From Salinivirgaceae bacterium (GTDB taxonomy: Bacteria; Bacteroidota; Bacteroidia; Bacteroidales; SZUA-534), in contig JAFYYA010000077.1 of NCBI GenBank assembly GCA_017557785.1, positions 1 through 64,000 on the forward strand: a stretch of DNA of 64,000 bases, read 5' to 3'. Made by a program: the position numbers and the translations under genes. Shown piece by piece: positions 26,401-64,000 of this stretch (its first letter is position 1; the number at the start of each line of letters is the position of its first letter). Below the pieces are notes generated by a model. It saw only the letters and a list, made by a program, of their open reading frames with translations. It did not search any database and was not told where the DNA came from.

Positions 26401-29400
26401 GGTCGAAAATCACTTCCGACGAGTGGTTGAAGGTTCCGGCATTTTTCCAGTTACCCGACACCCATAATTTACAACTACTTGTGACAATGGCATCATGATC
26501 AATAATCACATCACCATTGATATCAAACTCATTAGTTTTCAAAGCCTTGACAGCACTTCCCGTGAAATGCATTGTCGGATAAGTGTTCTCAGTGTTAGCA
26601 TTGCTGATGGATTGCTCTGCTTCACTGCTTGTGAAATGCAGACTCGCCCCTTTGGTGTGCACAAACTTGCAACCTTTATACAGATAGAAGTCACCACCGA
26701 TTATAATCCTGTGATTGTCAATATCAAAATTACCCTTACTTGTTGTGGTCATCATATTGTTGCCAACAAAGACATTGGTCTGGAACCGCACTGTGTCGTC
26801 TAATTTCTTGTCGATGTAAACATTATAGAACCGTGTGTTGATTGTGTCACTACAAGCCACATTCTGTATGTGGGTGGCGCCGTTAAGGTTCAATCGTCCG
26901 TAATCCTGATGATAGATACCGCCACCGCCATCGGTATTATCAAAATCACCATACAGGTTAATGGTGCGGTTATCGGCATTGAACTCACAACCCGAATAAA
27001 CCGACAAATCACCTTCGATGGTGAGTGTTCCTTTCAGCGTTTTCACACCGTTGCCACGCACCTGAAGATTCGGGAATTTGGTGCTTACAATCTCTTGATT
27101 GCCAATACCGCACAAAACGATTGTTGATGCCGGATTGATATTCAGATTAGCTGCCGCCAGCTTCCAGTCACCTTCAATGTACAATTCAATGCTCTCATCT
27201 TCGATGGTAAGAATCGGCGTTCCGCTGCTCACGTTTATCCATCCCATGACGGTTGTTGTTCCTTCAAGTTTTTTGACCGTGCTTCCGTAGAGTGATATGT
27301 TGCCATAGTTGAGCACCGGTATGTTCTGCGAGCCTTTTGTGGCATCGAATAGCACAATGCTGTTTTTGTCGAGTTCAACATTGCCGAAAGTCCCAATAGT
27401 CTCGCCCAAGTTGTCGGCCCCACTCACTTTGATGCGCGTGTTGTTGCCCAAAACCAACTGGTTGTCACCCGACCCGCTACCGGTAATCACATAGTCGTCG
27501 ATGTCGAGAGCAAGAAAGAGCTGCTCGTTTGTACTTGCGTTTTCCAGTTTGAGCTCGCCATCAACTTTAATGTTGCCGCTGATGGTTTTGGTTTGTGAGT
27601 TGGTCGGGTCACTGCTTGTGAAAATCAGATTGTTGAACTCATAAGTTCCATCAGTCCGCTTATAGATGACCTGGGCGCGGTTGCCGTTCATTGTCACCGT
27701 ACCAGTTGACAAAATCGACGATTTGCCCTTAACATCCGGATTATCAGCTATGTTATACCCGATAGTGTGTTCAAATCTGCCCATATTGACATTTATCTCG
27801 TCATTTGTACCCGAGTAAACATACAGGTGTCCGGCAATGTTGGTCGAGCCGTCGAATGTCTTGTTTTTGTATTGCAGATAAAGATGTCCGTAATCGGCCG
27901 CATGAACTGTCTGATCGAAATTCGAATTGTAGTATGTGGTGCTTGTGGCGCCTATTGTTATAGTTCCAAAACCTGTCGGATAATTATCAGAATGGCCTTT
28001 CAGATAGAACGCCGTACCATCATTAACAACAAAGGCCTTGCCCAATTTTCCAATCATTTGTGCGGTGAGTTCGGTCACACCATCATACGTGCCGTTCAGC
28101 ACAAATGAATTCGCTTCCAATGTGACATTGCCTTCAGGCCTGAAGGTGTCGCCGGCCTTTACCGTAGGGGTTCCGCCTTTCAACGTTATATCACCGCTTC
28201 CCAATGTGAATTCGCCATTGCTACTGTCGTTATACCTTATGGTGCCGCCTGCGATTGTCATCGGACTTTGCAGATAAATACCGCCTTCGGCAACAGCACC
28301 AACGAAGGTATGATGGTAGCCTGTTCCGTCATCGACCATCTTGGCCGTGGCCCAAGCACGCAACTCTGCTGTCGAGTTTATGTTGCCATGGAAAGTCTTG
28401 ATTCCTTCGCTTCCTTTTGCCCGGCAAGATATTCCGGCAAAAGTCACATCACCATCAAGGATAATGGTTTGATTTCTATCGGCTGCTGTTGTTTTATCAT
28501 TCTCACCTGTATAACTACCCCAGAAGCAAGTGTACTCGGTGTTTGAGTCGAAAGAACTTCCCGCTTCAACCGTAAAATTTTTATAGAAACGCAGAGAAGC
28601 CGATGTGCTTACTGTTGAATGATCTTTGACAACAAAATTACCGCAAATCTGCATCTTGCATGACAATACCAGGAATCCGCCACCCGAGACTTCTATATCA
28701 TAGAAAAAGTTATTGTTTCCATTTCCCGAAACGGATTGGACCGTGGTGCCATCAAAAATAATCTTGCCACTCGAATAATCGAACCCTGTTTTAGCGCTTG
28801 CATTCTTTGTAAAGTTTCCTGCCAGATTCATTGTGTGGCCATCCAATGTGAATTTTGTTGCCGAAGCACCGATAGTAAACGCACCGTCAATGTCCAAGTC
28901 CACATCAGCAGTGACCGTTCCCGACGCAACTTCAAAATTGTTGAATTTGGTTGTCCCCGAACCTTTTACATGTTGCGATGTTCCATTGAAAACCATATTC
29001 ACAACCTTGTTCGTGCTTTTGCGGAACTCAACCACACCGTTGTTTTCAAAATCGCCCGCCACCTGCAGAACGCGTGTACCGCTCAAATCAGCCACATCCA
29101 CTGTACAAGCCGCGTTAACCAGAAACTTCCCTGTCACTGTCGCACATTTGAACGTCTCATTCTCTCGGCCGAAAGTCAGTTTTCCGCCATCTTGCACCGT
29201 CAGGTCCGCAACTTTAATCGAATCGCCAATGGTCACATCATGCTTGACGACAAACGATGCGGATCCGTTCAAGAATGTTTCGTCCGAAATACTCGTGCCC
29301 CATGTCGCCGGGTTATTGAAATCACCAGCTCTTGCTGACGTATATATTGTTTGGGCCGAAGCTGATTCCATTACAAACAGCGCCGAAACGCCCAACAAAA

Positions 29401-29425
29401 TCTTGTGTAAATAATTCTTTTTCAT
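14408..29425 (-). CDS. Giant 5005-residue modular secreted protein with T9SS type A sorting domain
   Basis: Signal peptide to about residue 25 (VMESASAQ). The body is made of several dozen beta-rich repeats with the loose pattern GxWxNxGxF...VxFxGxxxQxI...FxNLxI...LxVxGxLxI, the sort that forms a long beta-helix or filament. Larger modules recur. An aromatic 'WTG...W...NW..(G)..VP' block occurs at Trp1457, 2622, 3402, 3851 and 4374, with a simpler NPATWG form at 38-43. A 'YY...LSNG..SN' block comes just before four of these (Tyr-Tyr near 1345, 2480, 3289, 3730), so segments get shorter towards the C-terminus. Two FPIG modules lie near 4231 and 4651. An FN3-like PIELVSFDA...WSTASERNNDYF domain lies at about 4816-4910. 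The last 85 residues (VAPNPG... to SKFVVE) are a type A T9SS sorting signal, so it should cross the outer membrane and be attached or released. A surface adhesin or sheath fibre is inferred; no enzyme motif was seen. Single-gene transcript. Confidence 0.9.
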   Translation of the reverse strand: MKKNYLHKILLGVSALFVMESASAQTIYTSARAGDFNNPATWGTSISDETFLNGSASFVVKHDVTIGDSIKVADLTVQDGGKLTFGRENETFKCATVTGKFLVNAACTVDVADLSGTRVLQVAGDFENNGVVEFRKSTNKVVNMVFNGTSQHVKGSGTTKFNNFEVASGTVTADVDLDIDGAFTIGASATKFTLDGHTMNLAGNFTKNASAKTGFDYSSGKIIFDGTTVQSVSGNGNNNFFYDIEVSGGGFLVLSCKMQICGNFVVKDHSTVSTSASLRFYKNFTVEAGSSFDSNTEYTCFWGSYTGENDKTTAADRNQTIILDGDVTFAGISCRAKGSEGIKTFHGNINSTAELRAWATAKMVDDGTGYHHTFVGAVAEGGIYLQSPMTIAGGTIRYNDSSNGEFTLGSGDITLKGGTPTVKAGDTFRPEGNVTLEANSFVLNGTYDGVTELTAQMIGKLGKAFVVNDGTAFYLKGHSDNYPTGFGTITIGATSTTYYNSNFDQTVHAADYGHLYLQYKNKTFDGSTNIAGHLYVYSGTNDEINVNMGRFEHTIGYNIADNPDVKGKSSILSTGTVTMNGNRAQVIYKRTDGTYEFNNLIFTSSDPTNSQTKTISGNIKVDGELKLENASTNEQLFLALDIDDYVITGSGSGDNQLVLGNNTRIKVSGADNLGETIGTFGNVELDKNSIVLFDATKGSQNIPVLNYGNISLYGSTVKKLEGTTTVMGWINVSSGTPILTIEDESIELYIEGDWKLAAANLNINPASTIVLCGIGNQEIVSTKFPNLQVRGNGVKTLKGTLTIEGDLSVYSGCEFNADNRTINLYGDFDNTDGGGGIYHQDYGRLNLNGATHIQNVACSDTINTRFYNVYIDKKLDDTVRFQTNVFVGNNMMTTTSKGNFDIDNHRIIIGGDFYLYKGCKFVHTKGASLHFTSSEAEQSISNANTENTYPTMHFTGSAVKALKTNEFDINGDVIIDHDAIVTSSCKLWVSGNWKNAGTFNHSSEVIFDRNDDDEGGGNQYISSSAFSSVTFAGTGKKMLTGMINVSSQLKIDSLSTLEVSPDDGATCYEIKVGGTWKNNVWGPGGPDHSSTGKFIPHKGTVTFVGNSSYIYTGDSIKSNNKGRDYKSFYNVVINNSDPTNYKGLYPIYKVKNSIKSEQNDMYVENNFTINTGIFYVYWNTLYVGANLWNLGGTFSMNSHYRAESRLLLGGAAGGDDYEFDPGESNTIRQIEVVGGGTYKLKSDYTQYTLTASTGQDSLIHIRKGEFCLNGHTITFNEGGNIRIEKGGTLNIDAGATLAMLSSKYLINSGGTLKIVGTEGNPATIQAAAVENYYYIRQDSGKIYANYYCIEGTNGSGLNIDGGTIDNTQNLSNGMFSNSTGTALLTIGEKVTIADGFKKIDNVSFNARENKPTYNVQRTNGTKPVTFTNYNGSLAGEGHEKDTQGTLIIWEEPSGFVWTGNGDGINWHDGRNWDGGNVPGATDEAYLKFVSGKNNVKITTQADVKTLTIDGKVTLTLDGEEVGEGVACGLKVRNKLTMMKNSKLVQTGERDSLVLNGSWISSGTYTPNGQPTIFDLQAGIHQLSIPSGQPMSTMILKGSGSLSLLGTIAINGNIILEKDATLVAGTGTINIGGDWINNGGIFDEGESKVNFNADEEGKIQTISGGKFWRIDFTGKSKKVIASDLSVRRYFIINNSVTEVDAGTSNIHLIGRPTYWYNYKGETAFAQSGDGAVICSGSTVYFGKHNDDPVKRDTRITTFNNIILQGTGTKHFYDTTNVKGTVEMVSGIDVVIGRYGSINGVTGNSTFVSYGGALLIYGEDNFPKDMKTELVGGSVYYRDSIDQIISPAQYYNLVLRNEYKGSSGSSFSIRRTTKTMSGDISVVGTLNINDSLAILNVDNHTITLTGTIAMANNGKQIRWGTDGTLDHIGGSWDVSANITDFCNVYKHGTGYLYASSDWNVTGDMEFDPETRFYMRGNKITGQPDKHFKMGVNCQLHSSVEKSKGVAFPQGFGSYLLDETTTTYLEASADQTVYTQDVVYGALYLNASVVRTVDFDGDLTVRGNFTNAQDATTVNAQDHKFYLWGASNDLRNYHTDTTLYLMANGDQKIATGGNCTELNLKNIELCGSGVKELDDTKVNISGTIKIASGTSFSTNDAVVFSGDTIDNKGTFRHYGSSFTFDGDTTHYIFMGADNIFNGIIITDNDTVEVKNNGITLNTGTFSIGKKSKFLMGGFTHYLASPKIELADDCEWDTKAATLVFNRNTTQNLPAITCENIQFSNAGSKILEGDLHVGNLTIDEGVTFSVGSTAADGKTVYVKGNWVCNGSFTSQTDTVYFDSQTTEEKRIKANNQTFNVVVFNKNTTNKCTYKLEDQMTLKDGMTIGKNATFHLNKNILVVGNDDANSTEPPYVPDGEYVDVLANGELYVDGGASLQFNHQDDNTHLRVYGKLSLVGETNANAVIGRSTGSNDRGTEIDIYGEIAANYYQIQYVAPTGFNIHEDATIDPVNNLSNGIWSNMYTSTSYKRPKDKETVVDTFIYLIINSKNISNPNINNLSFNHGGTPTIGTHFNILRDSTLATAITLGGTINGGLGTQYYEMYAFSKPYKTGMTPRTHKIHWPEVAELVWTGRVSSDWFDMRNWFPMEVPTAAKSVRIPLTANAPIIYNNGAVCNDLIIVNGSLTIEKGLSAPALKVEGSVDVQDGAVLAIEDDAVIDVYGDWNIATRGYFVPQNGTVRFKAGGGSVTISPHKSDFNNVSFDGAATFMLSGSPVNFNGNVDINKGTLWPSTASYVYNVKGDYTIAAGGAFNNVETGFVNFNGVNQTITNGKFSRVRFSNEGTKTIAGTFDATYNSSSRTTRTIIVEDNATLLATSPLTIKGNVLIDGNATFNDGNKQHTFTGYYWEAPKDKGYVGSGKIVFSGNHAQYIWGGKFHDIDMTLSTKYISADATMTGNLTLEACNLDMLTNHINGDGTFEMTGTKTINVYARGENNYPTFANYVVSGTSCYSYYNGPMNQTIRGGDNVRYGYLYMNSDTYKTLEGDIIVQKNLNISENGGTLDANDKNIYLAGHWYNQTNGRFIPGKGRVIFNGSSGNQYAYLGVSVDNPFYDVEVAKTGTDQFYAASVDLTVGGSLYVKGGKMNCVGGYRVRIGGDVQVSSPGVINNSGCYELYRSTGTCNITTAGSILNDLVINGSGCTFVVNDDLTVYGNFTLQKGIFKHNKNVVTLGNSYDNSLIYGTYIVGPGGKLRIGSASSFVVKAGGTFEAVGDNVNYAQITNDGGSNRYYFTVEGGLIKAEYYSFSYLAKQGIIISKDATIHGVSNFSHGIFSNVVSAGVCLDIRNDQEFIKTDSIVDISFPNNPGGGAVNIKKTESSSGGIDVYNATGLLAGELYENDPHGLINWKGDVEYIWTAGANSNDWWDPMNWTAKLNGVEVPHTIPGESNNVTIPSTSAGMNKYPIIDRSGARAKKLTIDKVAVLTIKLESDMPDTLGYALIATSDITVNGTLTMTSELDKVQLYGNWVIGTSGNLNEGASTVEMIGVGVKTIQNKALSFNNLVIDNIGNVQAQSALKVGGNFEIRQGTFDVGSYDVTVGGNFTNNGTFMPQTRTLIFNAVDGNAHTFNPGRSTYNNVQFKSGDYSLTGNELYISHNIELDGGSLTVGDNTINLGDGTGVDNLNIAGALYLVDDGKLKMGNNAYINVKNGGLISLVGIENHEAIVTSQKTTGTYSFTVDGEIAARYYKIERLNADGLHLKSGSTINATDNLSNGQYSSGTAGGCYMWLENNLAAADAELQISNVYFNAGAKYNVKRSRLSSVGNINIRDAVGVVAGYYFENDVDEDKPSAISGAVRWSYSGDVRHWIGNKNMSGEDDDSGVYGKLWSNPKNWDNGLGQEGTPNSTTRVFIPYVEHGQYPVIDRNLEGDVEVKGIDVYSNASLEINDGKNLAVTDSKLGLSIGENATFTASDGTNLSTVTINGQFANSGKFIHGGSSKVIWSSSSNRDISMNGYSFYDFEVQNVGGATVTFTVEAGKPLKIENNFTISGGNVNCNGGVLEIGGDFTKTGGNFIHGNGTVRLNGSKEQTISSNTTLSFYNLELIGTNTKNIGIDIEVVKDITVGTTVKALGTTNITCRGNWNRPASGSQKNNFIGGTGAVIFAGSVMQDINKPETFTNVTFNNPKLAAFSTTYTQTITGVLTLTHGILKGNASNPICLTEGASVVGGSPESYINGTVEKEGSADFYFPIGGNDRYAPIEIFDLGGSSKFQVGYHSDMPDNQTNLDADVNQISKKEYWTLNRNSGSTMPKVKLYWYDRYYSELKDMDVVSVVLYKDNKWTRQIDRVVEHEKEIINALSGYEEDTLRGYITTRVPIEESGKLTFGLTYPTITWLNGALTDAYSTQENWTGKYIPDERVNIRVNSVDPGNNTPKVTSTGKCYDMTINEGGKLEVASGATLTVFGNATIHGELKLAQGAKITFMKDVLGADGHVLAAANSEVYISSETDQIVALDSCYNIVFEGGLSKTDKCTKTLTSDIKVGGSINVKNYTTLAAGSHTISLGGNLTITTYGDFINGTSTLVLNGSDKQILSITPNRALYNLTINNSSPTSPQIDLGSGIKVTGSLNLIKGKLHSTSSSRLILAGAKSSIGNADSYVIGEMERDGSGDFVFPIGSERGLAQVGISGTGATSYFMVAEYRNTKPQSVGNLDEANVLKVSHLESWHLSNKNDIDANLTLYWNDSEYSEITDEKELLVAVLSGGKWYSYGFDGGTMSADKKSGTVKSGRMIKIKKSSSSSQTMRQGASRRTLASGGPVALADEGGVDVTFGTKRPDINPLPIELVSFDAAVTPNNTDVKLTWSTASERNNDYFTIEHMFDGELETVDTVAAKGGAGEGADYDYLHINQSAGTHYYRLLQTDYDGTVTVAADWIAVIIENADQPVLDASVAPNPGQCQNIRITVSGISGSKLRYVVADMSGQSLIDRTVSTAGMSSFQIDATDWKLQPAMYLIKVFTDNGQTVSKFVVE

Positions 29426-55613: not shown

Positions 55614-56519
55614 CTATCTGTCAAAAAACAAATTGGCACTCACGTTCCATCTGAATTTGACAAGCATATTACCGCAAGCTGGGCGCAATGTCAATATATA
55701 AAACACCCATAATGTGATAGTTGCGCCCCATTTCAAAATTTCTGAAATGTAGCGTTTCAGTAAGGCTTTGGTACCAATGTTTTTACAGCGCAAACGCTCG
55801 CTTGCGCCTATCCCCGCGCCCAATTTGGCAATAAAATCCGCCGTAGTGCGGTGTGGCGGAATACTGTGCTCCACGGCGGCTTTGGGGAAATAATAAATTG
55901 GGAAACCAGCGGCCTTTATACGATTGAAAATGTCTTTTTCCTCGCCCCCCATCAGGTTCTTCTTGCTGCGACCCAAAGCGGTGTTGAACATTCCACACTT
56001 ATCGGCTACAGCGCGACTGATACCCATATTAGCTCCTATAGGATATTTATTTCCTTTGAACAGCGACACTTCGCGCCCCATATCCAATGCCGAAACCCAC
56101 GAATAGGTCCATCGGCAAAGCCATGCGGGTGTTTCGCCCGACTCAAACGCTGGTGTGATTTTTCCGCCAAAAGCACCTGCATCGGGATATTTCTGAAGAT
56201 AAACCGACAAATTGGCCAAATAGTCCGAACAGAGCATTGCATCATCGTCTAAAAAGACCAACCAATCGCCATTAGCTTCGGCAATTCCTCGGTTTCGCGC
56301 AAAAGACAGCCCCTGACTAGTCTCAACAAAATATCGGAACTGCACCTGCGGATAATCAGCATCGAACTGTCGGCACAACCGCTCAGTATCATCAGTGCTA
56401 TTGTTGTTGATCAGCAAAATTTCATAGTCAGACACAGGGAATCCGTTTTTAGCAATCTTTTGTAAACTGCTGTAAATGAATTTATCGCGATTATATGTAC
56501 AAACAATTAGCGAGAGCAT
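55614..56519 (-). CDS. Glycosyltransferase family 2
   Basis: 301 residues. GT-A fold: N-terminal LSLIVCTYNRDKFI, LLINNNSTDDT, SQGLSFARNRGI, and the metal-binding LVFLDDDAML (Asp91-93). Residues about 245-290 contain one or two membrane-associated helices (WGATITLWVFYIL). Sugar and acceptor cannot be read. Last gene of the minus-strand polysaccharide operon; it starts immediately after the previous gene stop. Confidence 0.92.
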   Translation of the reverse strand: MLSLIVCTYNRDKFIYSSLQKIAKNGFPVSDYEILLINNNSTDDTERLCRQFDADYPQVQFRYFVETSQGLSFARNRGIAEANGDWLVFLDDDAMLCSDYLANLSVYLQKYPDAGAFGGKITPAFESGETPAWLCRWTYSWVSALDMGREVSLFKGNKYPIGANMGISRAVADKCGMFNTALGRSKKNLMGGEEKDIFNRIKAAGFPIYYFPKAAVEHSIPPHRTTADFIAKLGAGIGASERLRCKNIGTKALLKRYISEILKWGATITLWVFYILTLRPACGNMLVKFRWNVSANLFFDR

Positions 56520-57596
56520 TTATCGGAATATTCTTACATATAGATTTTTCATAATCCTATCACATAACGAATTAAATCGTTCGAACCAAGACGGCCACCG
56601 TTGGTGGCGGCGATGCCAGTAAGCCATTGCATCGAAATGAAGTATTTTGTTTTCGGGATAAAGTTTTATAGTCCCCAAATCAAATTGTTCGCAAACCTTC
56701 TGATATTCTGATTCGGCGCAACTAAAACGTTCGGAATCAAACATTTCGCGCGGCATATCAAGAAGATGACATTTGCAGACAATCCTTAGTCTGTTCAAAT
56801 AATATTGCCGCAAAAACTGCAAACGGACAGGCGACAACTTAGATTTGTCATAATTGCCGAAAAACTTGAGCAACTGGTCTGTAACCTTTTCCAATTGCCC
56901 GATGTTGCGAACCAAAACCTGTGGGTTCATAGTCTGCCCCTCACGAGCCAAATTATATTGGTACAAATCGATATTGTAAAAAACGATACTTTGGGCAACA
57001 AACAACGGATATGTAGCCCACTCTAAATCGGTGTACGACACACCTTCGGTCTGGCGGTAGTTCATCTGGCGCAACATCTTTGTGCGGTACGTCAGTCCAT
57101 GCATCAAAAAGAATCGTATATAACCGTCTTTCAGAACATTATCAAGCTCATAAACACGTCCGTACTCATATAGTTCTTTACCATAGACATTATATTTCGA
57201 CAATTCAGTTTTGCCATCTGCATTCAGAACCGTAAAATGAGTGACCAGAATATCTGCATCAGCCGTCTGTAATTCTGCAAGGAAAGCTAGCAAACCATCG
57301 GAATTGAAATAATCATCGCTATCAAGAATCTTGACATACTTGCCTTTGGCTACAGGTAACGCCGTATTGATAGTGGAGCCGTAGTTGCCGTTGGGCTTGT
57401 CGATGACCGTAACCGTATCGGGGAACCGCTCCTTATATCTGTTGGCAATGGCGAGCGAGCCGTCGCGGCTGCCATCGTTGACCACAATAGCCTCAAGCTG
57501 CTCAAGCGCGCCGTCAACAAGCAAAGAGTCGAGACACCGCGGAAGCAAGGCCTCCATATTATAGGTGGGGATGATTATGGAAAGAAGTTTGCTCAT
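56520..57596 (-). CDS. Glycosyltransferase family 2
   Basis: 358 residues. N-terminal LSIIIPTYNMEALLPRCLDS, VVNDGSRDGS, NGNYGSTINTAL and metal site ILDSDDYF (Asp92, Asp94, Asp95). The C-terminal 150 residues are helical and lineage-specific. Similar proteins occur in capsule and LPS loci. Start overlaps the acyltransferase stop by 4 bases (ATGA). Confidence 0.92.
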   Translation of the reverse strand: MSKLLSIIIPTYNMEALLPRCLDSLLVDGALEQLEAIVVNDGSRDGSLAIANRYKERFPDTVTVIDKPNGNYGSTINTALPVAKGKYVKILDSDDYFNSDGLLAFLAELQTADADILVTHFTVLNADGKTELSKYNVYGKELYEYGRVYELDNVLKDGYIRFFLMHGLTYRTKMLRQMNYRQTEGVSYTDLEWATYPLFVAQSIVFYNIDLYQYNLAREGQTMNPQVLVRNIGQLEKVTDQLLKFFGNYDKSKLSPVRLQFLRQYYLNRLRIVCKCHLLDMPREMFDSERFSCAESEYQKVCEQFDLGTIKLYPENKILHFDAMAYWHRRHQRWPSWFERFNSLCDRIMKNLYVRIFR

Positions 57597-58753
57597 TTAT
57601 CTGATATTCTATTATTTGCAACCATTCTACCGCCTGTAAGCACAGCCAGTATTTTCGGCATAAATCTATTCATTATTAAATATATGCAATGACAGATTGC
57701 GTAAACCAAAACAGTGCCCAAAACAAGCGACGCGAAATTCAGGACCTTATTCGCGGGAGGTAAAAACAATGTTATCAACCAATTAACCACATCGACAACC
57801 AAAACCATATGTGCCATATACACAAAAAACGAACTTTTTGACAATGCGCCAACCGGGCTGTGTTTTTCGGATAGCGCCGCACACAAATTAAAGAATAGAG
57901 GAATGGCGCAAAGCACAAATAATCGTGAGGTTATGCAATAAATCCATTCGTTAACATTGAACGACACTGACGCAACAATCAGCAGTAATGCCGACAGATA
58001 CAATTGAATTTTAAAATGTTTGCTGAAAAATCCTGACATATTGAATCGGTTTATGCAAAACCACGCACCCAAAGAGAACATAAAAAACGCTTTCGACGAG
58101 AAACCAGGGTATGGAATCGATAAATCGACGCTATAAAGCAGACCAGCCAATATCAGAAAAAGTTTTCCTGCTTTCCTCACCATAAAATATATGAGAGGCG
58201 ACAGAAGCACGACCACCATAAGGTCGCGGAGAAACCAGGCCGGTTCGTCCATCGGCACGCCCGAACTGACGGAAATTCCAAAAAGATTTATCTGCTCGGG
58301 GCGTAAATCGCCATACAGACATCTGTCCCAAAACAGACGAAACCATCCGCGCTCGTTAAGCAGGGCGACCATATCAACAGGCTCGTTTCCTTTTATAAAA
58401 TGTCCGATAGAGCGCGTTATAAGGAAACCGCACATAGCTATCAGATTCCAAAGCAGATAGGGCACTAAAAGCGTGGCTCCGCGTTTTTTTATCTTAGCAA
58501 GCCAAACATCGGCGTTCCAATTTTCTAACTTCCTGAAAAACAAGTATCCGGATATGAGAAAAAAGGCAGGAACCGCGACCGAAAACAACACTCTGAAAAT
58601 CATAATTGTTGACGCTTCATACCAACCTTCGGAAAAAATCTCAGTTCCGTCGGTGTAATATTGCCTAACGTGAAGCCCGACAACCATAAAAGCCAAAACC
58701 GGCCTCAACCAATCAATTGTTTCCGATTGTATTTTCTGCCAATCGCCGCTCAT
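57593..58753 (-). CDS. Acyltransferase 3 family membrane protein
   Basis: 386 residues with about ten membrane helices. N-terminal DWLRPVLAFMVVGLHVRQY carries the family His (active-site region), followed by RVLFSVAVPAFFLISGYLFF, and GVPMDEPAWFLRDLMVVVL. Family members O-acetylate (or otherwise acylate) surface sugars using a cytoplasmic acyl donor. Overlaps both neighbours by 4 bases (ATGA), so it is tightly coupled within the polysaccharide operon. Confidence 0.92.
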   Translation of the reverse strand: MSGDWQKIQSETIDWLRPVLAFMVVGLHVRQYYTDGTEIFSEGWYEASTIMIFRVLFSVAVPAFFLISGYLFFRKLENWNADVWLAKIKKRGATLLVPYLLWNLIAMCGFLITRSIGHFIKGNEPVDMVALLNERGWFRLFWDRCLYGDLRPEQINLFGISVSSGVPMDEPAWFLRDLMVVVLLSPLIYFMVRKAGKLFLILAGLLYSVDLSIPYPGFSSKAFFMFSLGAWFCINRFNMSGFFSKHFKIQLYLSALLLIVASVSFNVNEWIYCITSRLFVLCAIPLFFNLCAALSEKHSPVGALSKSSFFVYMAHMVLVVDVVNWLITLFLPPANKVLNFASLVLGTVLVYAICHCIYLIMNRFMPKILAVLTGGRMVANNRISDK

Positions 58754-59847
58754 ATTTGCATATTCAATACATTCTCAATAATTTGGTGCATATCGTAGTA
58801 CTTATACTCAGCCAGACGACCTCCGAAAATGATGTTCGGGTTTTGTGCCGCCAAAGCCGCATACTGGGCATAAAGAGCGTTGTTGCGGCTGTTGTTGATG
58901 GGATAATAAGGTGCAGCACCACGCTCCCATTTTTGCGAATACTCATAGGTGATGACCGTGTCGGGCTGCTGGCCGAACTCGAAGTACTTGTGCTCGATGC
59001 AACGGGTATAGGGAACTTCTGCCTCGGTGTAGTTGACCACGGCATTCCCTTGAAAATCAGACACTCCTGTAAGCAGTTCATGCTCGAAACGCAGTGAGCG
59101 GAAATCCAACTCGCCAAAACGGTAGTTGTAGAAGGCGTCAATCTGACCAGTAAAGACAATCTTGTCGGCAAGAGCATCAAAATACTCGCGATTGGCAAAA
59201 TAATCGGTGTTCAGACGCACTTCGCAACCATCAAGCAACTTATTGAAAATCTGCGTATAGCCGCCAATAGGGATACCTTGAAATATGTCGTTGAAATAGT
59301 TGTTGTTGAACTCAAAACGGAACGGCAGTCGGCGTATCACAAAAGCAGGGATTTCTGTAGCCTTCATTCCCCACTGCTTTTCGGAATATCCTTTGACAAG
59401 TGTTTCGTAAATATCACGTCCTGCAAGTTTAAGCGCCTGTTCTTCAAGATTTTTTGGCTCGGAAATGTCAGCAAACTCAGCCCGTTGCTGCTCAATTATC
59501 GCCTTTGCATCTTCTGGTGTGTTAACGCCCCAAAGTTGGTGGAAAGTGTTCATATTGAAGGGCAGATTGTAGCGTTTGCCCTTGTAGTAGGCAACTGGCG
59601 AATTCACAAAATTGTTGAACGACACAAGGCTGTTCACAAAATTCCAAACCTGCAGATTCGATGTATGGAAAATGTGCGGTCCATACTTATGCACGTTGAT
59701 ACCAGCGGTGTTTTCCGTATAGCAACCTCCACCAACGTGAGGGTTGCGGTCGATGACAAGGCACTTCTTGTCCACCGCCTTCGCACGGTAAGCAAACATA
59801 CTGCCGAACAATCCGGCACCGACTATAAGATAATCGTATTGTGGCAT
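58750..59847 (-). CDS. glf: UDP-galactopyranose mutase
   Basis: 365 residues, full length. FAD enzyme that interconverts UDP-galactopyranose and UDP-galactofuranose. The FAD-binding LIVGAGLFGSMFAYRAK (Gly10, Gly12, Gly15), the VGGGCYTENTAGINVHKYGP segment, FHTSN, GYSEKQWG, and the C-terminal FGGRLAEYKYYDM are all conserved. It shows that the encoded polysaccharide probably contains galactofuranose. Confidence 0.97.
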   Translation of the reverse strand: MPQYDYLIVGAGLFGSMFAYRAKAVDKKCLVIDRNPHVGGGCYTENTAGINVHKYGPHIFHTSNLQVWNFVNSLVSFNNFVNSPVAYYKGKRYNLPFNMNTFHQLWGVNTPEDAKAIIEQQRAEFADISEPKNLEEQALKLAGRDIYETLVKGYSEKQWGMKATEIPAFVIRRLPFRFEFNNNYFNDIFQGIPIGGYTQIFNKLLDGCEVRLNTDYFANREYFDALADKIVFTGQIDAFYNYRFGELDFRSLRFEHELLTGVSDFQGNAVVNYTEAEVPYTRCIEHKYFEFGQQPDTVITYEYSQKWERGAAPYYPINNSRNNALYAQYAALAAQNPNIIFGGRLAEYKYYDMHQIIENVLNMQI

Positions 59848-59850
59848 AGA

Positions 59851-60708
59851 CTACAAATTATGGTGGCATTGTGACAAATCGGGACATATAAACTTGGCGT
59901 GAATCCGCCACTGCTCCTTTGGCGGCATCTTCATATAATCGCCATAAATGTTTTTCAAATAAGCATCTGGATTGCCAGGCGCATAAAATTTATGCCCTTC
60001 AAACTCAACTTCCGACAACGGGAACATATCAGTTTTCAATGTCGGATAACCATAAGTAAGTCGTTCCATCGGTGAAAAAATCCGATCTTTTGAACGTGCA
60101 ATACAGATCAATTTGAAAACAATTTTCAATGCAGCATAGATAACCGGAAAGACAAAATACCGAATGATATTCATCAATGTCAATGGCCGATTGTAATGGA
60201 AAAAGCCGAAACACTTTTGAAACCAATTTAAGAAAAAACGAAACGCGGGCTTTGCTAACGTAGGGTACTCGACTGCCTCAAAAACATCGATGAAAATACC
60301 GCGATGGTAATCGGTTGTGAACACATCGAAATCGTTAATATAAAAAGTATTGTCTTTGCGTATTTTAAAAATACCGCGACCAACACCTGACTGAGGCTCG
60401 TTTTTTTCTGTTTGCAAGAAATAACCATTTTCCAGCTGTGAAGCACCAATTTCAATGAATTTTTTATAATCTTCAGCAGGCATCGAGACATCAACATCAT
60501 CGTCCCACGGAATAAATCCTCCATGACGTACCGCGCCCAATAAGGTTCCATAGCTTAACCAATACTGCAAATTGTTGGATCGGCACACTCGATCAAATTC
60601 GATAAGTATTTCCAGCGCAGCCTGCTGCGATTGTCTGAAAACGCTGCCTTCTGGGTTGTATTTCGCTTTTAATTCTGCGCTATTTATTGATTCCGATACT
60701 CCTGACAT
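59851..60708 (-). CDS. LicD family phosphotransferase
   Basis: 285 residues. The LicD core is clear: LQYWLSYGTLLGAVRHGGFI followed by PWDDDVDVSM (Asp69-71, Asp73, the metal-binding residues), and the C-terminal block with DMFPLSEVEFEGHKFYAPGN and YGDYMKMPP. LicD proteins transfer phosphocholine or related phospho-alcohol groups from CDP donors onto surface glycans. The start overlaps the stop of the opine dehydrogenase gene by one base. Its donor may be made by the two enzymes encoded just upstream. Confidence 0.93.
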   Translation of the reverse strand: MSGVSESINSAELKAKYNPEGSVFRQSQQAALEILIEFDRVCRSNNLQYWLSYGTLLGAVRHGGFIPWDDDVDVSMPAEDYKKFIEIGASQLENGYFLQTEKNEPQSGVGRGIFKIRKDNTFYINDFDVFTTDYHRGIFIDVFEAVEYPTLAKPAFRFFLNWFQKCFGFFHYNRPLTLMNIIRYFVFPVIYAALKIVFKLICIARSKDRIFSPMERLTYGYPTLKTDMFPLSEVEFEGHKFYAPGNPDAYLKNIYGDYMKMPPKEQWRIHAKFICPDLSQCHHNL

Positions 60709-61730
60709 TATCCTAATAAATTATTGCAATTTATTTTACCCATTCCCCACTCATAAACCTTGTCTATAACAGGGGTGCTAATATCATATTTTTCCGCTAA
60801 TTCTTTAATAAAACGGAGTCCAAATGGAAAATCCTCAGTAAAATATCTGTTTTGAAAATCGGGGACAAAACCATTATCCGTCTCTTTCATAGGAGACAGT
60901 AATCCCCGAAAGGCAGGTATGCTCTTAATCTTTTTCGTAAGACTCGCTGCATCCGAACTCTCGTAATACTTCAAAAGTGGGAGAATAGAATCTTTCTCAA
61001 CTGGCAATTTTCCTAACAAGCTGAAAAATTCTTCATCCATTTTTATAATTGTATCAGAAGAATCGTCAGACCATTCTTCATAAAACAAGATATTGCGATC
61101 AAATGGTTTACCATCCCAATTATGAAATAACGAATACAAACGTCCCGTATGCAAAATCGGATTGCTGTTAGTCAATGATACTTCATAAAAACTTTTTAGA
61201 AGCTCCACGGATGTAATCCAAAGTTTCCCAACAAGCTGTCGAAAAACTTCTGTATCAAGAATATTTTCCGTCGCAATGTAAGCTTTAGGCTTGTAACCTA
61301 AAAGATTAGCCGAATGTCCATAAACTCCCACCCGAGCAATGAACGGGGTTCGTTGAAAGCCAAACAGTTTAGATTGTGAATCGAATATTTTATGTGCGGC
61401 GAAGAAAAAACCCGTACTGCACACTATCGACCCGACAACCGTTTTTTTAGACAAATATGGTTTTATACATTTCAGCTCGTTTTCAATAGCATAGCCAGGA
61501 AGACAAAGAAATACTATGTCACAGTTTTTAACCACAGTTTCAGGATTATCGCTGATTTCATTGATTCTTCCTATGTATTTTTTCCCTTCGCTGTCTGTGA
61601 CTTCAATTTTTTTTCCCCATTTTTCAGGATTACGCGTTAGAATATTCAACAAAACATTTTCATTCGCAGACAAAACTCCCGAACAAACGTGTCCCAATGC
61701 TCCACCACCGCAAATGCATATTTTAATCAT
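60708..61730 (-). CDS. NAD/NADP octopine/nopaline (opine) dehydrogenase family protein
   Basis: 340 residues. N-terminal Rossmann fold with ICGGGALGHVCSGVLSANEN (GGGALGH at 8-14), VFLCLPGYA, and a C-terminal octopine-DH domain (about 185-340) with TNSNPILHTGRLYSL, carrying the conserved Asn/His, and RYFTEDFPFGLRFI. Opine dehydrogenases join an amine and a 2-oxo acid by NAD(P)H-dependent reductive amination. In a glycan locus, the likely product is a carboxyalkyl-amine decoration. Gene overlaps the upstream fusion gene by 4 bases and the LicD gene by one. Confidence 0.88.
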   Translation of the reverse strand: MIKICICGGGALGHVCSGVLSANENVLLNILTRNPEKWGKKIEVTDSEGKKYIGRINEISDNPETVVKNCDIVFLCLPGYAIENELKCIKPYLSKKTVVGSIVCSTGFFFAAHKIFDSQSKLFGFQRTPFIARVGVYGHSANLLGYKPKAYIATENILDTEVFRQLVGKLWITSVELLKSFYEVSLTNSNPILHTGRLYSLFHNWDGKPFDRNILFYEEWSDDSSDTIIKMDEEFFSLLGKLPVEKDSILPLLKYYESSDAASLTKKIKSIPAFRGLLSPMKETDNGFVPDFQNRYFTEDFPFGLRFIKELAEKYDISTPVIDKVYEWGMGKINCNNLLG

Positions 61731-63535
61731 AATTGCATTAATCCATCAATCAGTTTCGTATTATCTTCGTGACTCCTGACAGCAATACGCATATACTGTT
61801 TAGCGTTGAGCCCGGCTTTCGATGTGCAGTCGCGCATTAGGATGTTGAAACGCTTTAACATTTCAATTACAATACCATTTGCGGTGTACGGCTGCATAAT
61901 TTCAACAAGGAAATAATTCGCTTGAGATGGAATCACTCGTAAATATTTGATTTCACGTAATTTGCTTTCAAAATCAGCACGTTCTTCAATAAATTTGGCA
62001 CACGCTTTCCTATAGTCTTTCTCGTATTTTGTGAAAATCTGCATAAAAAACTCCGCAAACGAATTGATATTCCATATGCTGACCGTTTTTTTCAATTCCA
62101 CAATCAGAGTTTTGTCTGCCGAACACAAAATTCCAAGCCGTATGCCTGGGACTCCATAGCTTTTTGAAATACTTTTCATTACAACCATAGTCGGGTATTT
62201 TTCCAGAATATCGTTGTGAAGCAGTGAGTTGTTTTCCCAATCTGTACTGAAATCAACAAAACTCTCGTCAACTATCAGCCTGACATTGTTTTTGCCGCAC
62301 CAATCGGCAATGCGGCAAACATCTGCGAACGGAATAAAGTTTCCTGACGGATTGTCGGGATTTATCAGCAGAAGGTTGTCCGCGTGGTTTTTCGAAAAAT
62401 AATCAATCAAGTCTTGTGCCGAATATCGGTACTCGTCGTTCTGCGGAATAAAAGTTACAAGTTCCTCCGGCTTACGTCTGTTGGGGTACTCTTCAAAAGT
62501 TGGACGGATAATACCCAATGTTCCAGGCAACATTTCCATTAAAGCCTTAATCAGTTCTGCTGCACCATTGCCCGGAATTATATATTCTTCTTTTACGCCC
62601 CAGCACTTGCTTGCAATTAACGTATTGACTTTCAACCCCGATGGATATTCCGCTACAAGAGTTTTAAAATTCGCCTGCATCTCATCAATTATGCTGGAAC
62701 TTCTAAAATATGGATTTACCAAATAACAGAAATCCAGCATTTTTGGGAACCTCCAGAAACCGCCATATCGCCCGTAATATTTTCTAATAATGTCTTTGTC
62801 TTCGGCAAACAAGGCTTCGGCGATATCCAAATCCTGCTTGTCATCAATTTCATACCATTTTTCGCCATCAAGCGGCAAAGCTTTCAAGTCGTGAGAATTA
62901 AGGAACGAAATTATCCGCAACACGTTCTCATAATACTCATTGTTTCCGACTGCTTTAATGTATGCATCCAAAAAAGGAACATACTTGTTTGCGGAAAAAT
63001 CTTTTGAAAACTTATAGATATTGACGGTTTTATAATACTCACAAGTGTCTTCGTAACGGAATGCCGCTTTGGTTATGAAATTGACAATGTTGTTGTCATT
63101 GTCGATTTTCACCATAGTTCCATCCATCCACGTTTCGTATTTTGCAATGAGTGCCAGATTCGGTTCCTTGCTTCCGACTATTAGGTTGAGGACACTGTCT
63201 TCGAAAATCAAATCACTCTCTATCAGCAAAGTATCATCTTGTTTAAGTTTTTCTTTTGCCAAATAGAGCGAATATATATTGTTAGTTTTATCGAAAATTG
63301 GGTTTTCAACATACTCAATATTATATTCTTTCTGTCTGTCGGCAAGATGGCTGACAAGTCTTGTAGCCTCGTACCCAACAACAATTACTATTCGTTTGAG
63401 ATTCAGCTTCTTCAGCTGATTGAGCAGTCTGTCGATAAGCATAGTCTCATTGACAGAGACCATACATTTGGTGTTGTTTTGAGTATACTCGCCAAGTCGC
63501 TTGCCCATTCCTGCCGCTAAAATTACTGCTTGCAT
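61727..63535 (-). CDS. Fusion protein: LicC-like nucleotidyltransferase + class I/II PLP enzyme (HisC/CobD-like)
   Basis: 602 residues. Residues 1-245 are a nucleotidyltransferase: AVILAAGMGKRLGEYT (3-18), Lys23 (NTKCMVSVNE), LLIESDLIFED (103-113) and a WYEIDD site (227-232), the layout of LicC-type CTP:phosphocholine cytidylyltransferases. Residues about 260-602 are a fold-type I PLP enzyme: GNGAAELI (322-329), NPDNPSG (392-398), VDESF (422-426) and the Schiff-base Lys458 in SISKSYGVPGIRLG. This half is closest in pattern to histidinol-phosphate aminotransferase and CobD-type amino-acid-phosphate decarboxylases. The fused protein may make an amino-alcohol phosphate and activate it as a CDP derivative for LicD. 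Whether the PLP half is an aminotransferase or a decarboxylase cannot be read from sequence. Confidence 0.88.
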   Translation of the reverse strand: MQAVILAAGMGKRLGEYTQNNTKCMVSVNETMLIDRLLNQLKKLNLKRIVIVVGYEATRLVSHLADRQKEYNIEYVENPIFDKTNNIYSLYLAKEKLKQDDTLLIESDLIFEDSVLNLIVGSKEPNLALIAKYETWMDGTMVKIDNDNNIVNFITKAAFRYEDTCEYYKTVNIYKFSKDFSANKYVPFLDAYIKAVGNNEYYENVLRIISFLNSHDLKALPLDGEKWYEIDDKQDLDIAEALFAEDKDIIRKYYGRYGGFWRFPKMLDFCYLVNPYFRSSSIIDEMQANFKTLVAEYPSGLKVNTLIASKCWGVKEEYIIPGNGAAELIKALMEMLPGTLGIIRPTFEEYPNRRKPEELVTFIPQNDEYRYSAQDLIDYFSKNHADNLLLINPDNPSGNFIPFADVCRIADWCGKNNVRLIVDESFVDFSTDWENNSLLHNDILEKYPTMVVMKSISKSYGVPGIRLGILCSADKTLIVELKKTVSIWNINSFAEFFMQIFTKYEKDYRKACAKFIEERADFESKLREIKYLRVIPSQANYFLVEIMQPYTANGIVIEMLKRFNILMRDCTSKAGLNAKQYMRIAVRSHEDNTKLIDGLMQL

Positions 63536-63632
63536 TTCCCTATTTTATTATGTTTTGGCAATATACTATATTTTGAAAATAATACTGCAGAACACGCAAC
63601 TAATGTGTACAAATTAAAGACAACTATTGGTA

Positions 63633-64000
63633 TTATTGCTTTTTTATAGCGACAAAATAATGGTTTATTCCTGTTTCAGGCAGCAAATGCCAATTCCCAT
63701 ACAATTTTGAAAGATAATTATCCGCATTACCAGGACAAGGGAACATAACTCCTTCAAAACTGTGCTCGATAAGAGGAAAAACATCCTTTTTGTGGCGTAA
63801 AGAATTGAAATTGATACCATAATCATGGATGTAGGTTGTTCCGTGAAATAAACGCCCATAGAAACGGAGAAGTTGGATAAACGGTAATGAAACAAACTCT
63901 AAAACTACCGACAATAAATGCTTGAATTTACCATCCTGAATCATAAACGTTTTCCTTCGCAGGAACTTTCCATATGTTTTTTCAACTATTTTTTTTATCG
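63633..64000 (-). CDS. Second LicD family protein, 3' part
   Basis: The frame is open to the right edge, so the N-terminal part with the catalytic Asp cluster lies outside. The visible 122 codons include IHDYGINFNSLRHKKDVFPL then HSFEGVMFPCPGNADNYLSK and LYGNWHLLPE, which align with the C-terminus of the LicD protein at 59851-60708 (DMFPL...FEGHKFYAPGNPDAYL...YGDYMKMPP). An internal Met at 63944 is not the true start. It is separated from the fusion gene by 97 AT-rich bases and is probably in the same transcript. Confidence 0.8.
   Translation of the reverse strand, partial: IKKIVEKTYGKFLRRKTFMIQDGKFKHLLSVVLEFVSLPFIQLLRFYGRLFHGTTYIHDYGINFNSLRHKKDVFPLIEHSFEGVMFPCPGNADNYLSKLYGNWHLLPETGINHYFVAIKKQ

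Follow-up and report, generated by a model that had tools for sequence, protein, structure and literature searches.

The gene set described here probably produces a 'phospho-opine', an N-(1-carboxyalkyl)-aminoethyl phosphate, and attaches it to a glycan as a decoration. We give this reading a probability of roughly three in four, judging from the protein families involved, the order and swapping of genes and the conservation of active-site residues. As earlier described, the set comprises a LicC-CobD-like fusion, an opine dehydrogenase (OpDH), a LicD and a second LicD that extends beyond the window, i.e. the whole 64 000-nucleotide stretch of DNA analysed, and it belongs to a polysaccharide locus (Wzx/UGM/GT) in a MAG assigned to a Salinivirgaceae genus. 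In the pathway that we propose, the CobD-like half of the fusion would decarboxylate L-serine-O-phosphate to phosphoethanolamine and the LicC half would couple this to CMP, giving CDP-ethanolamine. Either before or after cytidylylation, OpDH would join a 2-keto acid, probably pyruvate, to the amine by condensation and reduce the resulting imine with NAD(P)H, whereupon LicD would take the phospho-opine off its CDP carrier and link it to a sugar in a Wzx-exported glycan. Such chemistry would be a new variant of Lic/Pnt logic.

RESULTS

Locus layout and probable destination of the product

All genes of the locus are on the minus strand (Table 1), and Pfam profile scores bore out the families assigned in the first-pass annotation, namely a LicC-like/PLP fusion, an opine dehydrogenase and two LicD. 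The same genes had been called consecutive and overlapping; they are indeed consecutive, with frames overlapping by 4 bp between fusion and OpDH and by 1 bp between OpDH and LicD-B, but LicD-A and the fusion are separated by a 97-bp gap. LicD-B and the piece of LicD-A inside the window both passed the gathering cut-off of PF04991 (22.6), and neither LicD-A at full length (76.5 bits) nor LicD-B (97.8 bits) reached the cut-off of 225 for the cholinephosphotransferase model NF045866. A flippase-like gene lies 5′ of LicD-A, beyond the window, its Wzx label having been given by eye.

Table 1. Genes and domains of the locus, in the transcription order given
Feature	Position	Strand	Length and profile match
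LicD-A, putative phosphotransferase	contig C52 64469-63633	-	278 aa from TTG
LicD-A, 3′ part inside the window	63633..64000	-	PF04991 27 bits on 121-aa piece
LicC-PLP fusion	63535-61727	-	602 aa; PF12804 47.9 bits, residues 3-117; PF00155 105.4 bits, residues 315-598
LicC-like cytidylyltransferase half, residues ~1-245 (boundary approximate)	62801..63535	-	PF12804/PF00483
CobD-like PLP half, residues ~255-602, putative L-serine-O-phosphate decarboxylase	61727..62773	-	PF00155, TIGR01140
OpDH (Octopine_DH), predicted N-carboxyalkylation of aminoethyl group	61730-60708	-	340 aa; PF02317 113.3 bits
LicD-B, putative phosphotransferase	60708-59851	-	285 aa; PF04991 134.6 bits
UDP-galactopyranose mutase (Glf)	58750..59847	-	PF03275 256.8 bits
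Acyltransferase family 3	57593..58753	-	PF01757 103.7 bits
Glycosyltransferase family 2	56520..57596	-	PF00535 94.1 bits
Glycosyltransferase family 2, final locus gene	55614..56519	-	PF00535 85.5 bits

In a homology-guided recount of 80 OpDH loci, used for all counts over 80 loci below, a LicD, Glyphos or CDP-alcohol transferase was found within six genes of OpDH in 58; the remaining 22, some of them on short contigs, had none within that distance and include the two-gene units L052 and L058. LicD was in some loci replaced by CDP-glycerol- or CDP-alcohol-type transferases. One such case, L061, where fusion and OpDH are followed by a CDP-alcohol transferase, would suit a product destined for a lipid or small molecule and not a polysaccharide, as would trios of LicC, CobD-like and CDP-alcohol-transferase genes lacking OpDH (L054-L056 and L229-L232, assigned by Pfam for L054 and by similarity for the others, with the LicC of L056 cut by a contig end). 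Such a trio was present in all four newly fetched genomes out of 14 matching the PLP part alone; L057, also a match to the PLP part only, had no labelled LicC or transferase adjoining. However, the window locus holds two LicD, a flippase-like gene and GTs, which together with the transferases close to OpDH in 58 of the 80 loci makes a lipid or small-molecule destination unlikely.

The two halves of the fusion protein

The LicC half has an NTP_transferase fold with LicC (1jyk, 1.7e-14) followed by PntC-AEPT (6pd1, 2e-7) as best matches in the PDB, and with these as nearest solved relatives it belongs to the LicC/PntC class and is predicted to use CTP. The transferases of CDP-alcohol-using families that follow lend further support to the CTP activation and transfer suggested earlier. 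E106 and E203, kept in all 32 aligned fusions, aligned with the Glu pair that passages of PMC6697681 place near the amine in AEP-specific PntC, choline LicC having Asp there.

For the PLP half, the CobD model TIGR01140 gave 171.6 bits (curated cut-off 290.55) and the hisC model TIGR01141 for histidinol-phosphate aminotransferase 143.3 bits (cut-off 276.55), i.e. both scores were below their cut-offs with hisC also below CobD, and the CobD model was ahead by 28-41 bits in all four tested proteins of the present type. The best PDB match was the CobD-like protein 6oux (4.6e-41), which we take to be a Ser-P decarboxylase. Residues K458, D423, N395 and R466, presumably the PLP lysine and cofactor-site residues judging from their roles in the fold family, were found in 32 of 32 fusions and aligned with the CobD and 6oux motifs, as in PLP fold-type I enzymes. 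The CobD-like nature of this half was thus upheld by model scores and structural match alike, and a HisC-like function appears disfavoured; the sequence does not distinguish between Ser-P and Thr-P as the presumptive substrate.

Cassettes replacing the fusion

The two OpDH genomes without fusion in a family sample of 399 genomes (L362 and L363) carry PntC-like, PEP mutase, phosphonopyruvate decarboxylase and AEP aminotransferase genes, the last split into two ORFs in L362, followed by OpDH. The same AEP set was seen in L146, with three proteins exceeding NCBIfam equivalog cut-offs. L362 shares its site with L317, the four upstream genes being 76-95% identical and the downstream Glyphos, Wzx, GT2 and next gene 61%, 70%, 68% and 84%, respectively; between these flanks lies the AEP cassette in L362 and the fusion in L317, and the OpDHs of the pair share 41% identity. 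In a search of the whole window genome, all PEP mutase matches above cut-off lay on contig C137 and none on C52, so the window locus was not classed as Pnt.

A nucleotidyltransferase and an amidohydrolase adjoin OpDH in five further loci (L107, L115, L123, L129 and L150; Pfam run on L107 and L150), in whose genomes no LicC-PLP fusion was found. Four of them also have a nucleotidyltransferase-choline/ethanolamine-kinase fusion; the kinase-fused nucleotidyltransferase has no Glu at the E106 position, and the alcohol handled in these loci could be choline or a different one. In L076 and L079 the PLP gene lacks a LicC partner, whose place is taken by the PF01467 part of a LicD-PF01467 protein (L076 by Pfam with a weak LicD part of 28.8 bits, L079 by similarity). 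Because an AEP/PntC-like cassette or a nucleotidyltransferase-kinase fusion can replace the LicC-PLP fusion, the product of the latter would most simply be an activated 2-aminoethyl-phospho unit, and the proposed phosphoamine-making step is supported comparatively by this AEP/PntC-like swap as well as by the CobD-like scores.

The same evidence bears on other substrates for the PLP half. Threonine-phosphate decarboxylase CobD is its best NCBIfam model, and decarboxylation of threonine phosphate would lead to (R)-1-amino-2-propanol phosphate and its opine; yet the score is far below the CobD cut-off, the closest structure is the presumed Ser-P decarboxylase 6oux and the replacing cassette makes an aminoethyl compound, so that we find this route quite improbable. 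The PLP half could also be a DHAP or other aminotransferase yielding serinol phosphate or similar and, finally, an N-carboxyalkyl serinol phosphate decoration, as LicC-like and HisC-like genes also overlap at another place in the same genome (C96), a C96 relative in L053 scores higher with hisC (208) than with CobD (128), and C. jejuni Cj1437 is described in parts of PMC12409886 as making serinol phosphate. The consistent lead of the CobD model in proteins of the present type, and the replacement of the fusion by AEP and, less clearly, kinase cassettes, make that very unlikely.

Active site of OpDH

OpDH scored well above the PF02317 gathering cut-off (30 bits) and matched octopine dehydrogenase in the PDB at 6e-33, with H212, R324 and D329 of the latter, where Asp329 is presumably the dyad Asp, aligned to OpDH H194, R295 and D300. 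These three residues were invariant in 37 of 37 OpDH clade members, and with the catalytic His-Asp pair (H194, D300) and NADH-sensor Arg (R295) present, opine formation is predicted. R127 was likewise invariant (9 of 9 and 37 of 37 clade members) and missing in all seven distant family members, a pattern that would, as expected, fit an acidic amine substrate; for the 80-locus set this finding is in part circular, because one scan pattern contained that motif. OpDH hence resembles Pecten octopine dehydrogenase (3c7a/3iqd) in fold family and in the conserved His, Asp and NADH-sensing Arg, but it has Gln (Q126) in place of Glu142, a residue that according to PMC2924402 binds the guanidinium together with Trp278, and this Gln is directly followed by the invariant R127.

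Co-occurrence of OpDH and the fusion

Among 393 genomes sampled at order level, 13 matched OpDH at E 1e-10 or better: six at at least 34% identity, here meant by the OpDH clade, six at 26-28% and one as a 43-residue relic (G011). The fusion was complete in 13 genomes, counting G282, where it reads in two frames, and all six clade genomes were among these 13; the corresponding Fisher value of 3.5e-10 is indicative only, because the genomes are related. An apparent absence of OpDH in G010 and G015 was rejected as a sampling artefact. In the family sample, taken around Alloprevotella rava, the fusion was found in 95 of 399 genomes (7 partial or split) and OpDH in 62, so numerous members of one large family are predicted to carry the decoration. 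The co-occurrence search proposed in the first-pass annotation thereby linked the genes as anticipated, with 60 of the 62 OpDH genomes having the fusion. In 61 of the 80 related loci the fusion immediately precedes OpDH, the spacing ranging from -7 to 45 bp and the two genes overlapping in 26. OpDH was fused to LicD in 13 of the 80 loci; in one OpDH-LicD genome (L145) we found no LicC-PLP fusion and no alternative amine source adjoining OpDH. Fusion and OpDH are on separate contigs in some genomes, e.g. G309, G211, G727 and G818.

There is little chance that OpDH leaves the phospho-alcohol alone and, as a mere neighbour in variable capsule loci, forms an opine of its own or a carboxyethyl group linked to a sugar. 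Such loci are indeed shuffled, fusion loci without OpDH occur and distant Fibrobacter Octopine_DH proteins lie among other genes (by eye, DegT-like aminotransferase and ATP-grasp), but this is countered by the 60/62 association, the overlapping frames, the OpDH-LicD fusions, the pairing of OpDH with fusion and AEP cassettes alike and the position of the two-gene units L052 and L058 beside housekeeping genes.

Exchange of OpDH for an OCD/mu-crystallin protein

Regions were fetched for 88 of the 95 fusion genomes, leaving out the seven with partial or split matches. The gene after the fusion was OpDH in 55 and OCD/mu-crystallin in 15 (labelled by similarity to L223/L224, with Pfam run on L223-L225 only), and OpDH came one or two genes further on in three. 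Neither was found in the fetched region of the remaining 15, and N-alkylation is therefore optional; no region had both. Exchanges were seen within otherwise similar loci: L309 and L314 (fusion 95% identical, seven genes after the slot 93-98%), L329 and L331 (fusion 93%, LicD 84%, next three 68-89%) and L351 and L355 (fusion 84%, LicD 86%, next gene 79%). In a FastTree tree of 113 selected fusions (88 family loci and 25 more), 92 tips bore an OpDH or OCD label, and these labels required 18 changes for 18 OCD tips, and 500 shufflings gave a mean of 16.9 and a maximum of 18, i.e. the real labels were equally scattered; swaps look frequent, and the deep branches of the tree are uncertain. Because the OpDH slot is refilled by a protein of unrelated family, one with many imine reductases, reductive N-alkylation is the likely step, in support of the N-carboxyalkylation proposed at the outset; the OCD step could differ, because that family also holds cyclodeaminases and alanine dehydrogenase.

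DISCUSSION

We tentatively suggest, as a possibility that we hold with well under even confidence, that gut Bacteroidales have a modular phospho-opine coat in which recombination swaps single genes or cassettes, fusion against AEP cassette as the source of a phosphate or a phosphonate, and OpDH against OCD reductase, where OCD would yield a product of opposite stereochemistry or with the side chain of another keto acid. Epitope charge and shape would then change with the sugar backbone kept, as a one-gene antigenic switch. Phosphoethanolamine, phosphonate and opine chemistry would be joined in one interchangeable pathway, and the capsule group would, if we are right, be readable from metagenomes.

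In comparison with known systems, the proposed pathway resembles the phosphocholine Lic pathway in its predicted LicC-fold CTP activation of a phospho-amino-alcohol and LicD transfer, but a fused PLP enzyme would make the substrate where Lic uses choline kinase, and the amine would then be N-carboxyalkylated. Like the Pnt protein PntC-AEPT Tde1415, as presented in parts of PMC6697681, the fusion joins a cytidylyltransferase with the Glu pair near the amine to a PLP enzyme making its amine substrate; there, however, the product is a phosphonate and the PLP enzyme a class V AEP aminotransferase, in contrast to a phosphate and a CobD-like class I/II PLP half here. The main text of that article contains neither 'opine' nor 'octopine'. 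C. jejuni Cj1436 offers capsule-linked decarboxylation of Ser-P to ethanolamine phosphate, but its compound is amide-joined with the phosphate then removed, and the passages concerned in PMC12409886 mention neither CTP activation nor a step forming an opine.

The predicted product class is known chemically, as N-[(R)-1-carboxyethyl]ethanolamine phosphate in Proteus O antigens (sections of PMC9630907), and the present genes are a candidate set for this rare glycan group. A link to Proteus genes was sought and rejected, the main text of the paper on 60 O-antigen clusters (PMC5560731) giving nothing, O14 included, on genes for the decoration and containing 'carboxyethyl', 'licD' and 'opine' 0 times. 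In line with the earlier statement that no described pathway with this gene set was known, searches of an open-licence library gave no description of it. The predicted product is directly testable by NMR, and A. rava DSM 22548 (L124) is a cultured carrier.

In work by Vinogradov in 2001, the surface glycans of F. succinogenes S85 are said to carry aminoethylphosphonate and perhaps also a carboxyethyl form. Six Fibrobacter PF02317 proteins fall outside the OpDH clade, and this distant-protein lead was dropped because of 20% identity (two aligned) and a different gene context. The OpDH clade itself was present in 6 of 80 genomes of the Fibrobacter genus, with PF02317 in 11.

Organization of the locus

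The polysaccharide locus of the window lies on the minus strand of a 97-kb contig (G000:C52, whose positions 1-64000 form the window), in a genome bin of 3.0 Mb, with the order flippase-like gene (outside the window), LicD-A, the LicC–PLP fusion, the opine-type dehydrogenase (OpDH), LicD-B, Glf, an acyltransferase and two GT2 genes. This confirmed the row of fusion, opine dehydrogenase and two LicD genes described in the first-pass annotation, with overlaps of 4 bp between fusion and OpDH and of 1 bp between OpDH and LicD-B. In a genome of the same genus (G011), only a 43-residue relic of OpDH was left, between LicD- and GT2-like genes and close to a matching Wzx. Elsewhere in the window, a giant ORF with a start resembling a signal peptide, and with only one short tandem DNA repeat, probably encodes a giant secreted surface protein.

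Coordinates of the features discussed, as positions in the window
Feature	Strand	Positions	Length
LicC–PLP fusion	minus	63535-61727	602 aa
OpDH	minus	61730-60708	
Giant ORF	minus	14408-29425	5005 aa

Residues of the fusion and of OpDH

The best PDB match of the LicC half was pneumococcus LicC (1jyk, 1.7e-14), followed as second-best solved relative by the Treponema PntC-AEPT fusion (6pd1, 2e-7). The PLP half matched, in order, 6oux (‘threonine phosphate decarboxylase-like enzyme’, 4.6e-41), which we take to be the L-serine-O-phosphate (Ser-P) decarboxylase of Sulfurospirillum, 3ftb (annotated as HisC) and CobD (1lc5). With the NCBIfam models, CobD scored above hisC in all four proteins of this PLP type (window, L061, L052 and L054), the opposite ranking being found for the HisC-like control L053, and the CobD cut-off was reached by none of these scored proteins; the HisC/CobD-like nature first assigned to this half is thus upheld on its CobD side, though below cut-off. 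The PLP-site residues, as well as E106 and E203 of the LicC half, were invariant in 32/32 fusions. E106 aligned to Glu104 of Tde-PntC and the Asp105 position of LicC, and E203 to the Asp192 position of LicC (using an inferred chain offset of 20). According to PMC6697681, the latter position is Glu196 in PntC, located near the amine of 2-aminoethylphosphonate (AEP), and by that reading the LicC-half pocket, in which E106 and E203 match the Glu pair of PntC, would fit a small amine.

OpDH is a PF02317 protein (Pfam) in which H194, R295 and D300, invariant in 37/37 sequences, aligned to His212, Arg324 and Asp329 of octopine dehydrogenase. The last of these is presumably the Asp of the catalytic dyad. 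These three residues are common to both enzymes. Glu142 of octopine dehydrogenase, which binds the guanidinium together with Trp278 (PMC2924402), is replaced by Q126 in OpDH, followed by R127. This Arg was invariant in nine OpDH sequences collected ahead of any motif scan, and its position was Leu or Ser in 7/7 distant PF02317-family members; an Arg here would fit a phosphorylated amine substrate. Distant Octopine_DH proteins of Fibrobacter (L173-L178; two aligned, 20% identity) were also seen in capsule-like loci, together with genes labelled by eye as DegT-like aminotransferase and ATP-grasp-like.

Recurrence of the gene set and exchange of the probable amine source

Two short OpDH motifs, scanned against genome_contigs (described as covering 84,980 species), picked up 409 relatives. 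We analysed the best 80 loci, which came from Bacteroidales or related MAGs, as well as from five Fibrobacter and from a single cultured strain (Alloprevotella rava DSM 22548). Among these best 80 of 409, homology-guided counting placed the fusion immediately 5′ of OpDH in 61, and OpDH and LicD formed a single protein in 13. In five loci the PLP gene had no LicC part in its own frame: the fusion reads in two frames in L081, L142 lies at the edge of its contig, and the PLP gene stands alone in L076, L079 and L085. The fusion was found at most three genes away in L104 and L120, elsewhere in the genome for L080, L083, L097, L128 and L139, and nowhere in the genomes of seven. In five of these seven (L107, L115, L123, L129 and L150), a nucleotidyltransferase and an amidohydrolase adjoined OpDH, four of them also having a nucleotidyltransferase–choline/ethanolamine-kinase fusion around it; the amidohydrolase is of Amidohydro_3 type, and these loci represent a further variant of the pathway. 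L146 carried AEP pathway genes in place of the fusion, and nothing recognisable adjoined OpDH in L145.

When 399 genomes of the A. rava family were searched, the fusion was found in 95 and OpDH in 62, with the fusion present in 60 of those 62, either in the same fetched region (58) or elsewhere (G727 and G818; L364 and L365), giving a Fisher value of 1.4e-43 for genomes that are not independent. Fusion and OpDH co-occurred in both searches. The two OpDH genomes lacking the fusion (L362 and L363) had PntC-like, PEP mutase, phosphonopyruvate decarboxylase and AEP aminotransferase genes preceding OpDH, and a CDP-glycerol-type transferase and a Wzx-like gene after it. These labels were assigned by similarity to L146, whose PEP mutase, decarboxylase and aminotransferase scored above NCBIfam cut-offs; the aminotransferase of L362 is split across two ORFs. 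L362 and the fusion locus L317 represent the same site (upstream four genes 76–95% identical, downstream genes 61–84%); between these common flanks, L362 carries the AEP cassette and L317 the fusion. L363 shared downstream genes with L341 (54–87% identity). The fusion thus stands in for the AEP-to-CMP-AEP pathway, CDP-ethanolamine being its most likely product. Because the OpDHs of L362 and L317 were only 41% identical, OpDH appears to move together with its cassette. The two amine sources are not strictly exclusive, since phosphonate genes and the fusion coexist in L327 and L341. One further row (L291) read fusion, permease-like gene (by eye), PntC-like gene (close to that of L146) and OpDH, so that both amine-activation types stood beside a single OpDH.

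Exchange of the putative reductase and of the transferase parts

We classed 88 fusion loci of the family sample by their next gene, which was OpDH in 55 (five fused to LicD; two lying 94 and 522 bp away), an OCD/mu-crystallin-family gene (OCD) in 15, LicD in three, an opposite-strand gene in three and something else in nine, with OpDH one or two genes further on in the remaining three. L346 (G798:C1) and L321 (G724:C1) display the fusion–OpDH–LicD and fusion–OCD orders, respectively. OpDH and OCD occurred together in 0/88 regions. The OCD assignment was checked on L223-L225 (PF02423, 95–116 bits, reaching no NCBIfam equivalog cut-off), the solved proteins nearest to that of L223 being pyrroline-2-carboxylate reductase and mu-crystallin. 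L309 and L314 represent versions of one locus in which only the slot gene is exchanged (fusions 95% and seven following genes 93–98% identical); L329/L331 and L351/L355 also showed the exchange, with neighbours 68–93% identical. One slot filled by two unrelated families with imine reductases points to reductive N-alkylation as the step, the two versions perhaps differing in stereochemistry or keto acid. In another 15/88 fusion loci the region held no imine reductase of either family, and these loci may add plain phosphoethanolamine.

L076 and L079, with their PLP gene without LicC, had a LicD-PF01467 protein after OpDH, and OpDH was followed in L051 and L061 by a gene of PF04464 or PF01066, families using CDP-alcohols; these replacements fit with a CDP-activated intermediate.

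Proposed pathway

The fusion would produce CDP-ethanolamine, and OpDH, or OCD in its slot, would carry out reductive N-alkylation of the amine, with pyruvate as the default keto acid from family resemblance only. The OpDH step could precede or follow CTP activation: a free amine at the CTP step is favoured by the Glu pair of the LicC half, a late opine step by the existence of OpDH-LicD fusions. Comparative genomics supports the original proposal that a phospho-amino-alcohol is made, carboxyalkylated, activated with CTP and attached by LicD. In the open-licence PMC literature, to which our search was confined, no prior description of the gene set was found, and it would appear to be a new extension of the Lic/Pnt decoration logic by an added opine step.

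A three-gene unit of LicC, CobD-like PLP enzyme and CDP-alcohol transferase (L054-L056 and L229-L232; Pfam on L054 only), with no adjoining OpDH or LicD, may lead from Ser-P by way of CDP-ethanolamine to a lipid head group. In the window's own genome, another LicC-like gene overlaps a PLP gene of HisC-like type (G000:C96, L032) and adjoins a CDP-glycerol-type transferase look-alike (by eye), with comparable pairs in same-genus genomes, perhaps for a decoration of serinol-phosphate type. This genome also has a phosphonate cluster (G000:C137, L069) with a PEP mutase having a cytidylyltransferase-like N-terminal part, together with phosphonopyruvate-decarboxylase-like and iron-type alcohol-dehydrogenase-like genes (by eye), through which it may make a hydroxyethylphosphonate decoration as well.
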